Shown: positions 13,059 to 34,242 of the stretch, one piece after another | Position numbering within the stretch: the first letter of the stretch is position 1 | Layout of the letters: each line of letters opens with the position of its first letter | NCBI GenBank assembly: GCA_001485605.1 | Contig: FAON01000011.1 | Coordinates: 62,001 to 126,000, forward strand | Direction of reading: 5' to 3' | DNA from: Candidatus Kryptobacter tengchongensis | GTDB lineage: Bacteria > Bacteroidota > Ignavibacteria > Kryptoniales > Kryptoniaceae | DNA: 64,000 nt | Translations under genes and position numbers: made by a program | The notes under the pieces: model-generated | Seen by the model: the letters and a program-made list of their open reading frames with translations, nothing else | Databases searched by the model: none | Told to the model about the DNA's origin: nothing

Positions 13059-13580
13059 GTGGATTTAAATTGGTATGTCCTTCAAACCAAGCCGAAGCAG
13101 GAAAATCTTGTTGAATCATATTTAAATCTTGCAAACATTGAGGTTTTTAATCCCAAAATCCAAGAAATTCGTTATATTGGAGAGAAAAGAAAAAAAATCA
13201 CGGTTTTGCTTTTCCCGTGCTATGTATTTGCAAAGTTGAATCCAAGCCTGTTTGATCTTGTAATATATACACGGGGGGTAAGGAAAATTTTAGGTGTTAA
13301 TGGAAGACCCAAGCCCATTAAGGAATCAATCATTGAAACAATAAAAGAAAGAATAAGAGAAAATAGCTATATTTATGTCCCTGAAAATTATGAAGAGTTT
13401 CAACTTTGTCAGGGGGATTACGTAGTTGTGGTTGATGGTCCTTTAAAAGGTTTCGCTGGAATTGTTGAGAGAATAAACGGATCAAAAGCAATTGTGATGT
13501 TAATTTCTATGGATTATCAAGTAAAAGCAGATATCCCTAAATTTTTACTACGGAAAGTTGATCCAGAGATTTTGGAATAG
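13059..13580 (+). CDS. Specialised NusG paralog (RfaH/UpxY-type antiterminator)
   Basis: A 173-residue NusG-family protein. The NGN domain is shown by NWYVLQTKPKQENLVESYL at the start and FPCYVFAKLN and VIYTRGVRKILGVNG in the middle; a KOW motif follows in FQLCQGDYVVVVDGPLKGFAGIVERI. The GTG start is chosen because GGAGGTGA stands 8 bases upstream. Such paralogs in Bacteroidota (UpxY) and RfaH act on long polysaccharide operons. Here it follows a Wzc-like gene but is not at the head of any operon: the next gene is convergent, 8 bp away. It may therefore act in trans on a polysaccharide locus elsewhere. It is not the housekeeping NusG, which sits beside secE/rplK. Confidence 0.88.
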   Translation: MDLNWYVLQTKPKQENLVESYLNLANIEVFNPKIQEIRYIGEKRKKITVLLFPCYVFAKLNPSLFDLVIYTRGVRKILGVNGRPKPIKESIIETIKERIRENSYIYVPENYEEFQLCQGDYVVVVDGPLKGFAGIVERINGSKAIVMLISMDYQVKADIPKFLLRKVDPEILE

Positions 13581-31920: not shown

Positions 31921-33558
31921 TTATTCTATTTCCTCAGAAGGTAACTTTGGTTCCACCATTATAACTTCCTCACGTTCAACGATTACGCTACCTTCGGGGG
32001 CTCCTTTAGGTTTTCTCACATATTTTCGCTTTGTGACGATGACAGGAACAAGCGAGGATGTTTTCGCTTCACTAAAATATGCCGCAATTCCAGCAGCTTG
32101 TTCAATCGCTCTCTTGCTCGGCTGTTTCTTTCCCGCTTTTAAAACCACATGTGCCCCACGAACTCCACGAGCGTGAAACCATAAATCCTCTTTATCTGCA
32201 AATTTTAAAGTTAACAAATCATTGCTTTTCGCATCTTTACCAACCCAAACCTCAAACCCACCATCAACAACGAACCTTCTGAATTTACTTCCAACTTTTT
32301 CAGCCACCTTATCCCTCACAACTCCAAACAATTTCAAATCCTGAAGGTTGCCATCTTTAAACCTCTTCAAATCCTCAAAACTTTCACAATTATTAAGTTT
32401 TTCAATTAAACCCTTCAATTTCTCTCTATTAACTTTCAATCTCTCCAATCTCGCCTCTGCAATTTTTAATGATGCCCTTGTCTTCTTCGCTTTCTCAAAG
32501 TATCTCTCGGCATTTTCAACGGGGGAAAGTGAGGGGTCAAGCTTTATCTTTATCATTTCACCGCCCTCCGAAAACACATTTAAAAGCTCAACCTCCTCCA
32601 TCCCACGACGCAGAGAATTTAAATTCGCCATTAAAAGTGAACCATAGATTTCATACATTTGAGCCCTTTGATTTTCGCTGATCTCTTTCTCAACTTTTTC
32701 AATTGTCCTCTCCGTTTTATCAAGCAAATGTTTAAGTTTATCTAAAATTGATTCCCTCTCCTTATAAAAACTTTTGTTTATCTTTGTCTCAATTACAAAT
32801 TTTCTTATCGCCTCGTTTATGTCCTCAATTTCAACCTTTTTATAGTTTAAATGCGTAAGTTCAATAATTGAAAAATACCTCGGGAAAATTCCATCGTAAT
32901 AAATCCTCGGCAATGGGTTGTTAAGTTCTTTATCAATCTCCTTTAGACTTATCCAGATTTTTTCAACGGTGTGGCTTTCGCTTCTGTGTAAAATTTCTCG
33001 CGCCATCAACATATCAATTGTATCAACTGCTTTGAGAAGCCGTTGCGCTGGTTCTTCAATATCCAGACTTTCCCATGTTTTTTTGAAACTCTCAAAATCA
33101 TTTACAACAGCGTAATAATTTGATTCAGTTTTTTCAAACTCAAATTTTCTACCAATGTATAGCCTCGGATCTTTAAAAGATGAGATAATTTCATTTTCAT
33201 TTGTGGTAAGGAAGAAATTAACTTTACCTGTGAAAAACTGAAGAAGAATTTTATGATCTGATGAAAGTAAAATCTCAATTACTCTATCTGCTCTGTGAAT
33301 CTCTACATCATTTATCTTGTCACCGTAAATTTCGGGGAAAATGTCAAGCGAATTTTTTCTTGCCCTTTCAAACTTTGAACGCAAGAACATATATCCCCGC
33401 CCCGTTGCGTTGAGCTCAAGTGTAAAAGGTTCATCTTTTTCAACGGTGATATGAAGCGTATCTTTTTCCTGCGTGAATGCCTCAATTATTGTGGATTTCT
33501 CAAGCCTTGGTTTAAGCTTTTGAATCAAACATTTTAAGGTGTGGTAGTTTGTAAGCAT
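31921..33558 (-). CDS. rqcH: NFACT family ribosome quality-control protein (RqcH-like)
   Basis: A 545-residue homologue of RqcH/Rqc2/NEMF, which binds stalled 50S subunits and adds alanine tails. The N-terminal NFACT-N domain has the conserved Asp-Arg pair (Asp91-Arg92 in HRADRVIEI) needed for tRNA recruitment and tailing in studied RqcH proteins. Long coiled-coil helices follow (about 260-410), and the C-terminal NFACT-R domain has DLWFHARGVRGAHVVLKAG and AAYFSEAKTSSLVPVIVTKRKYVRKPKGAPEGSV. Older annotation would call it fibronectin-binding protein. The rest of the pathway (RqcP/Hsp15) is not nearby. Confidence 0.9.
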   Translation of the reverse strand: MLTNYHTLKCLIQKLKPRLEKSTIIEAFTQEKDTLHITVEKDEPFTLELNATGRGYMFLRSKFERARKNSLDIFPEIYGDKINDVEIHRADRVIEILLSSDHKILLQFFTGKVNFFLTTNENEIISSFKDPRLYIGRKFEFEKTESNYYAVVNDFESFKKTWESLDIEEPAQRLLKAVDTIDMLMAREILHRSESHTVEKIWISLKEIDKELNNPLPRIYYDGIFPRYFSIIELTHLNYKKVEIEDINEAIRKFVIETKINKSFYKERESILDKLKHLLDKTERTIEKVEKEISENQRAQMYEIYGSLLMANLNSLRRGMEEVELLNVFSEGGEMIKIKLDPSLSPVENAERYFEKAKKTRASLKIAEARLERLKVNREKLKGLIEKLNNCESFEDLKRFKDGNLQDLKLFGVVRDKVAEKVGSKFRRFVVDGGFEVWVGKDAKSNDLLTLKFADKEDLWFHARGVRGAHVVLKAGKKQPSKRAIEQAAGIAAYFSEAKTSSLVPVIVTKRKYVRKPKGAPEGSVIVEREEVIMVEPKLPSEEIE

Positions 33559-33655
33559 TGTTTAAATTTGCCACTTTTTGTCCCAAATTATGACTTTTGA
33601 CAAACAAAATCTATTTAAAAATTTATTGAAATCTTGGTAAAATTTTAAAAATTTT

Positions 33656-33671
33656 TTGGCACAATATTTGC
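33656..33671 (+). promoter_or_regulatory. Sigma-54-like promoter for a candidate small RNA
   Basis: TTGGCAC, 5 bases, TTGC: GG and GC dinucleotides stand exactly 10 bases apart, as in sigma-54 promoters. A housekeeping reading is also possible: TTGGCA with an 18-base spacer to TATATG (33680-33685). Either would start a plus-strand transcript near 33683-33692, ahead of the GC-rich hairpins. Confidence 0.45.
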
Positions 33672-33682
33672 GTTTCTTTTAT

Positions 33683-33832
33683 ATGAAGACGCACCTAAAT
33701 GAGCACCTCTAAAAGTACCTTGATTTGAGCACCTTTTCTTGATTTGCTCGTTCTTTAAGATTTCAACGCCCGCCGTAGCACCTCCGTTGGCGATCGGGCG
33801 ACCCTTTTTAGAGGGCGCTCGGTCGCTTTTTT
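33683..33832 (+). ncRNA. Candidate structured small RNA with anti-Shine-Dalgarno motifs
   Basis: A plus-strand transcript of about 150 bases is suggested by a promoter-like element upstream, a GC-rich 3' half (42 of 60 bases G or C at 33767-33826 against an AT-rich background), a hairpin CGCCCG/CGGGCG (33767-33772 with 33795-33800) whose loop contains AGCACCTCC, and a strong terminator. GCACCT occurs four times along it. No long ORF explains it; a 9-codon ORF (MKTHLNEHL) starts at 33683. It overlaps antisense the last ~25 bases of the RsbW-like gene. Not recognised as a known RNA family. Confidence 0.5.
33798..33832 (+). terminator. Intrinsic terminator of the candidate small RNA
   Basis: GCGACC (33798-33803) pairs with GGTCGC (33821-33826), with CCCT/AGGG inside, followed by TTTTTT. 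Its 5' arm overlaps the 3' arm of the preceding hairpin by 3 bases, so the two stems may compete. Confidence 0.75.
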
Positions 33833-34242
33833 ATTTTTATTCTGACTTTCATGCCATTTCTGGTTTTGTGAAATTTTACCACATCGGAAAAAGCTTTGAT
33901 GATATAAATTCCCCTCCCCGATTCCTTCAACAGGTTCTCATTAACGGTCGGATCCGGGATAGATTCAGGCTCAAAACCTTCACCCTCATCTTGTACCTCA
34001 ATCTCAAAACTTTTTTTAAAAGACTTGAACCTAACTTTTACCTTTTTACTTGGTTCAAGTTTATTCCCGTGAACGATGGCATTTATAAACGCTTCACTTG
34101 AAGCAAGATAAAGCCTATAAAAATCCTCATCCGAAATTTTATATTTGCCTCTCAACTCATAAAGAAATTTTTCAAACTTCTTGAACGATGAAACATCCGA
34201 TGGAAAATCAGCGGATTCAAATTTTGGACGGTTTTTTTTCAT
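33808..34242 (-). CDS. RsbW-like anti-sigma/serine kinase ATPase
   Basis: A 144-residue GHKL ATPase of the RsbW/SpoIIAB class, which binds a sigma factor or another target and phosphorylates a STAS antagonist. The N box YLASSEAFINAIVHGN (near residue 67-82), the G1 motif VQDEGEGFEP and the G2 region LKESGRGIYIIKAFSDVVKF are present. Its ATG overlaps the stop of the preceding outer-membrane gene (ATGA). A plausible STAS partner is encoded at 53779, not adjacent. The target of this partner switch is unknown. Confidence 0.88.
   Translation of the reverse strand: MKKNRPKFESADFPSDVSSFKKFEKFLYELRGKYKISDEDFYRLYLASSEAFINAIVHGNKLEPSKKVKVRFKSFKKSFEIEVQDEGEGFEPESIPDPTVNENLLKESGRGIYIIKAFSDVVKFHKTRNGMKVRIKIKKRPSAL

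Follow-up and report, generated by a model that had tools for sequence, protein, structure and literature searches.

A predicted sigma54-type small RNA with an anti-Shine-Dalgarno core in Candidatus Kryptobacter tengchongensis and its genus

Sigma54-dependent small RNA (sRNA) genes include those of the Qrr sRNAs in Vibrio and of CrcZ in Pseudomonas. Qrr RNAs pair near ribosome-binding sites, and both Qrr and CrcZ work with Hfq. A sigma54-dependent quorum RNA is described for V. fischeri (PMC10162802). The CJnc230 RNA of Campylobacter jejuni needs RpoN for its expression and carries an anti-Shine-Dalgarno (anti-SD) motif on a single-stranded stretch between stem-loops, with which it covers the ribosome-binding site of mRNAs and represses them (PMC11187230). 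The iron-sparing sRNAs IsrR and FsrA have C-rich regions matching the SD sequences of iron-enzyme mRNAs, and their hosts have low-GC genomes in which G-rich stretches are rare outside SDs (PMC9410917).

We analysed a window of 64,000 nucleotides, the whole stretch of DNA under study, from the 2.68-Mb genome of Candidatus Kryptobacter tengchongensis, whose genus consists of uncultured bacteria from hot springs. The window contains an element that resembles CJnc230 in its sigma54 (RpoN) link and in a single-stranded anti-SD stretch, both of which are predictions from sequence on the Kryptonia side. CJnc230 differs in that it is 98 nt long, has a short CCUU motif, lies downstream of flgE and targets flgM and Cj1387c (PMC11187230), whereas the Kryptonia RNA would match its targets, mainly catabolic and respiratory genes, over up to 13 nt; no relation in sequence or synteny was seen between the two. 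LhrC of Listeria monocytogenes, from another phylum, has a UCCC motif, five gene copies and control by LisRK (PMC4132741), in contrast to the single gene and longer invariant core found here. Several of the candidate targets are iron or haem enzymes, as with IsrR and FsrA, but those RNAs are Fur-controlled whereas the promoter in Kryptonia is sigma54-like, and no homology was seen. With Qrr and CrcZ the element shares sigma54-type control; Hfq (PF17209), however, was found in 0/7 Kryptonia-type genomes by searches whose controls were positive, which sets the element apart from Hfq-dependent sRNAs.

A conserved unit beside an RqcH-like gene

The features of the locus are as follows, with the sRNA start (about 33683) placed from the -12 element and its end from the T run.

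31921..33558, minus strand: flanking NFACT (RqcH-like) gene (PF05833, E 4e-47; PF05670, E 3.3e-13)
33657..33671, plus strand: sigma54-type -24/-12 promoter TGGCAC-AATAT-TTGC, with GG-N10-GC spacing in 5/6 aligned genomes
33683..33832, plus strand: predicted small RNA of about 150 nt, a same-locus unit in 6/7 genus members
33691..33734, plus strand: 5' domain, with GCACCT repeats at 33691, 33703 and 33729 and the variant GTACCT at 33715
33769..33793, plus strand: invariant anti-SD core CCCGCCGTAGCACCTCCGTTGGCGA, the presumed seed (25/25 columns invariant)
33789..33832, plus strand: intrinsic terminator GGCGATCGGGCG-A-CCC / GGG-CGCTCGGTCGCT, then a T run (15 pairs)
33808..34242, minus strand: convergent HATPase_c_2 (RsbW-like) gene, whose 3' end overlaps the terminator (PF13581, E 1.9e-25)

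The sequence-only reading had placed the element between divergent genes. This was wrong: the rqcH-like and HATPase genes are both on the minus strand, and the plus-strand element is divergent to the former and convergent with the latter. Its description of the letters themselves was accurate. The region is G+C-rich (42/60 at 33767-33826), CGCCCG (33767-33772) and CGGGCG (33795-33800) enclose exactly 22 bases with AGCACCTCC, and the T6 of the terminator lies at 33827-33832. GCACCT occurs four times in 93 bases (33691, 33703, 33729 and 33778), where about 0.01 occurrences are expected from the window frequency, and the repeats of the 5' domain are spaced by about 12-14 nt. A leaderless small ORF from 33683 (MKTHLNEHL) was rejected as it is absent in two relatives. 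Upstream of the RqcH-like gene, at 33560-33600 of the window, lies a conserved block, AAAATTATGACTTTT; reversed, it reads CATAATTTTG and looks like a promoter of the Bacteroidota TAnnTTTG type that would serve that gene, although the window's genome fits this pattern less well.

The element had also been credited with a promoter-like box. This predicted promoter is best read as sigma54-type rather than as a sigma70 box, with GG at 33658-33659 and GC at 33670-33671 separated by N10. The TGGCA of the -24 element is kept in 6/6 copies and the -12 TTGC, with the same spacing, in 5/6. A search of the genome with the strict pattern gave 18 sites, whereas the reversed control gave 2; sigma54 protein is encoded in 7/7 genomes, and NtrC-type GAFTGA proteins are present in the genomic DNA examined. 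Promoter, sigma factor and enhancer-binding proteins, as befits a sigma54-dependent gene, were thus all found, except that one relative (G006) has TTGA and so departs at the -12 GC. Intergenic sigma54-type promoters also precede an FlgB-like gene (G000 C12:179732) and a DnaK-like gene (C7:117989), which suggests that flagellar and stress genes share sigma54 with the predicted sRNA gene.

By blastn, the element was found at the same locus in 6/7 genomes of the genus, in which the relatives bear the record names Candidatus Kryptonium, Candidatus Chrysopegis and Kryptonia bacterium; in the seventh genome, which is 71% complete, the flanking RqcH gene is missing as well. Conservation of the anti-SD motif in relatives, which the sequence-only reading had proposed as a check, was borne out: all 25 bases of the core are invariant across six genomes, compared with 15/66 alignment columns in the 5' domain, while the neighbouring flanking protein is only 65-82% identical. 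The relatives each have 2-4 GCACCT-like motifs in varying copy number, with indels that are not multiples of three. The first 20 bases around the core have exact matches in three public Kryptonia records. A further 20-base exact match, in CANPVD010000072, has GC-rich coding-like flanks unlike the element and was set aside as chance.

Searches beyond the genus gave no clear relative. No homologue was found by blastn in 54 genomes outside it. A covariance model of the sRNA, run over 391 genomes of the class, retrieved the six genus copies with scores of 97-106 bits; its matches beyond the genus were all weak (best per-genome E 8e-4), and we take them as chance or terminators. Rfam (release 15) at gathering thresholds showed no family at the element and three tRNAs only in the window. 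With recovery confined to the genus in both searches and no Rfam match, the element appears to be an RNA family restricted to this genus. To the extent of Rfam and the literature searched, the family is new; anti-SD sRNAs as a kind are already known. Two genus members share another conserved terminator-like element (GGACCTG...AAGCGACCC...GGGTCGCTTTTTTATTTT; covariance-model matches L211 and L212).

We then compared two competing folds of the 3' half. The sequence-only reading had displayed the anti-SD motif in the 22-base apical loop of a hairpin (33767-33772/33795-33800) and had named compensatory changes in CGCCCG/CGGGCG as support. In the alignment this stem is broken in 4/36 cells (G002, G004 and G006) and has no two-sided changes; the compensation sits in the terminator instead. 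The terminator stem (33789-33804/33813-33827) is paired in all 90 cells (15 pairs in six sequences), with five pairs changed on both sides. Its predicted energy is -26.7 kcal/mol versus -9.1 kcal/mol for the hairpin, about 17 kcal/mol apart. CGGGCG at 33795-33800 is part of the left arm of the terminator, and the two structures are mutually exclusive. The 22-base-loop hairpin was therefore rejected on comparative and energetic grounds. A 5' helix suggested by RNAalifold (CTAAATGAGC/GTTCTTTTAG) is 91% paired with no compensation. The core is predicted to lie outside the terminator stem save for its last bases. Since no hairpin around the core is conserved among the six aligned copies, the core more likely stays single-stranded and links the 5' domain to the terminator, comparable to the arrangement in CJnc230.

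Part of the terminator's right arm lies within the coding sequence for the HATPase C-terminus, and the conservation of that arm is thus owed in part to coding constraint. This overlap with the 3' end of the HATPase gene could mean that there is no independent sRNA, and that the element is a 3' UTR or processing element of the minus-strand HATPase mRNA, or a terminator accompanied by chance conservation. The conserved sigma54-type promoter and the T6 both indicate the plus strand, however, the minus strand lacks a T run after the hairpin, and the invariant core lies outside the coding region; we regard this explanation as very improbable. Judged from its sequence, the element is very probably a real small RNA gene.

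Complementary ribosome-binding sites

Candidate targets were sought in the seven genomes as GGAGGTGC-N1-9-ATG, with the reversed pattern as control, and recurrent families were identified by protein grouping and Pfam. Each genome contained 12-17 such sites, against 0-2 for the reversed pattern. The complement of the core, CAACGGAGGTGC(TA), occurs in the target ribosome-binding sites, and the complementarity is often 11-13 nt long, taking in a C for which 16S rRNA has no match. The GGAGGTGC SD recurred before genes for a calcineurin-like phosphoesterase and a 199-aa secreted protein (7/7 genomes each), aromatic monooxygenase beta (Phenol_Hydrox) and an isochorismatase-domain protein (6/7 each), a catechol 2,3-dioxygenase-like protein (5/7), aromatic monooxygenase alpha (Phenol_Hydrox and YHS domains; 4/7), and a CBS protein and an ICMT-like protein (3 genomes each). 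The monooxygenase coupling subunit was also among the recurrent targets. COX1 of the window's genome and COX2 of two relatives have the GGAGGTGC SD. In the window's genome COX2 has AACGGAGGTTGC instead, and no other background pairing was as strong (-32.6). Among 464 kb sampled without bias, there was no convincing GGAGGTGC start. As the sites were chosen by an SD motif that 16S also matches, part of the target set may be merely strong SDs.

The best predicted pairs involve two monooxygenase subunits: alpha reaches -36 to -38 in two of the genomes, and beta -26 to -33. GGAGGTG does precede flgF and the NusG-like gene at 13059, the two genes that the sequence-only reading had pointed to, but both have GGAGGTGA, with middling predicted pairing (-17.7/-21.4) against -24 to -38 for the best pairs. 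The description of Kryptonia includes aromatic oxidation to catechol with meta-cleavage (PMC4737851). The corresponding operon (L175 5471-18948) also holds an IclR-type regulator, a reductase, a ferredoxin and meta-pathway genes, and SD strength varies sharply among its genes. In the window's genome the GGAGGTGC SD stands solely on the three hydroxylase genes and the dioxygenase gene of this operon. A pattern search upstream of the operon found no sigma54 promoter. Separately, the covariance model alone matched the antisense of a lipoprotein gene start region in two genomes, and this region seems to correspond to a site in the window's genome. The start region of the 232-aa lipoprotein gene (L210), GCGGAGGATGCCATGGCGGGC, fits the anti-SD as well as the 5' flank of the core (GCCCGCC), a hint that a second site of pairing may lie beyond the start codon.

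Do these matches reflect more than SD strength? For pairing comparisons the usual 16S tail CCUCCUUU was assumed, with which a C before GGAGG does not pair, whereas it does pair with the sRNA (CCG). This C was present at 41/100 GGAGGTGC sites versus 45/339 other GGAGGTG sites (odds ratio 4.5; pooled p 8e-9, an overstated value since sites in orthologues lack independence; a few sites were also counted twice), and the coupling reached p<0.05 in 4/7 genomes taken singly. When the sRNA flanks were shuffled with GCACCUCC held fixed, the mean pairing over 42 gene families was -21.7 +/- 0.6, compared with -23.7 for the real sRNA, and 1/300 shuffles matched the latter.

These results bear on two further explanations. 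The first accepts a genuine sRNA but holds that its GCACCU repeats and core bind a protein or the 30S/16S machinery, or act as a general decoy, the SD match being a by-product of CACCUCC. Short repeats with regular spacing do resemble protein-binding arrays, their copy number varies, and any strong SD matches CACCUCC. Yet the flanks beyond GCACCUCC fit the target sites better than shuffled flanks, the coupled C is opposite to what 16S would select, and Hfq is absent. We consider this account unlikely. The second holds that the SD matches have no regulatory link, GGAGGTGC being simply the form that a strong SD takes locally in highly expressed operons, and that the sRNA acts elsewhere. In its favour, GGAGGTG is a normal SD in the genus, 4/17 sites of the window's genome lie in one operon, and some recurrent sites, including the 7/7 phosphoesterase, pair about equally with 16S. 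The matches nevertheless recur among orthologues whose operons are unrelated to one another, and they include a C ahead of GGAGG that makes pairing with 16S weaker; we judge this reading improbable. An outgroup test of SD style was uninformative, as GGAGGTG SDs of the sister family hardly exceed the reversed control. GGAGGTG before ATG was little above that control in the sister family (G007, G009, G013 and G018) and clear in the window's genus, and SD usage thus seems to differ within the order.

Proposed mode of action and its meaning

The reading we prefer, at a probability of about 0.68, is a sigma54-controlled, Hfq-independent, trans-acting sRNA whose anti-SD core represses a limited set of mRNAs. 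Under the control of some enhancer-binding protein, sigma54-RNA polymerase would make an RNA of about 150 nt, with its 3' end set by the strong intrinsic terminator. Its single-stranded core, GUAGCACCUCCGUUG, would pair over 8-13 nt with target SD regions, assisted by the GCACCU repeats of the 5' half. The targeted mRNAs would be a limited set with the SD (AAC)GGAGGUGC(UA), centred on those for aromatic-compound oxidation (the alpha, beta and coupling subunits of the monooxygenase, and catechol 2,3-dioxygenase), cytochrome oxidase subunits, the calcineurin-like phosphoesterase, the isochorismatase-family enzyme and envelope proteins. Pairing would block 30S binding at these SDs, and covering the SD would lead to repression, the default sign for anti-SD RNAs. 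A long G+C-rich seed may, we conjecture, stand in for Hfq.

Of the earlier proposal of a translational regulator, the anti-SD sRNA is supported by its invariant core, promoter, terminator and recurrent SD matches beyond those explained by 16S; its display in an apical loop is not supported. The locus has what marks a trans-acting anti-SD sRNA at the level of sequence: its own intergenic promoter and terminator, a conserved seed and conserved complementary ribosome-binding sites in targets. Conservation, the promoter match, terminator covariation and recurring complementary SDs at orthologues can be read directly from the genomes; transcription, pairing in vivo, repression as the sign and an inducing signal are what we infer. 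On these grounds the element is well supported as an anti-SD regulator.

A role as a coordinated metabolic switch is plausible. That several of the targets make use of iron, haem or oxygen points to oxygen, iron or carbon status as what may control the sRNA; the set also holds unrelated proteins. More tentatively, and with less than even odds in our estimation, the sigma54-switched, Hfq-independent sRNA of this thermophilic candidate lineage could turn off terminal oxidases and the oxygen-dependent breakdown of aromatics together, with SDs diverged from the 16S optimum (CGGAGGTGC) so that the sRNA, and not SD strength, marks the regulon.

If true, these proposals would supply a level of regulation for a lineage that is known chiefly through its genomes, with predicted post-transcriptional control of the monooxygenase and catechol meta-cleavage pathway singled out in the description of Kryptonia (PMC4737851). 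They would also place a sigma54-controlled, Hfq-independent anti-SD RNA outside Campylobacter, and the coupling between a tagged SD and a single sRNA would clearly show ribosome-binding sites that have evolved to suit an sRNA and not the ribosome.
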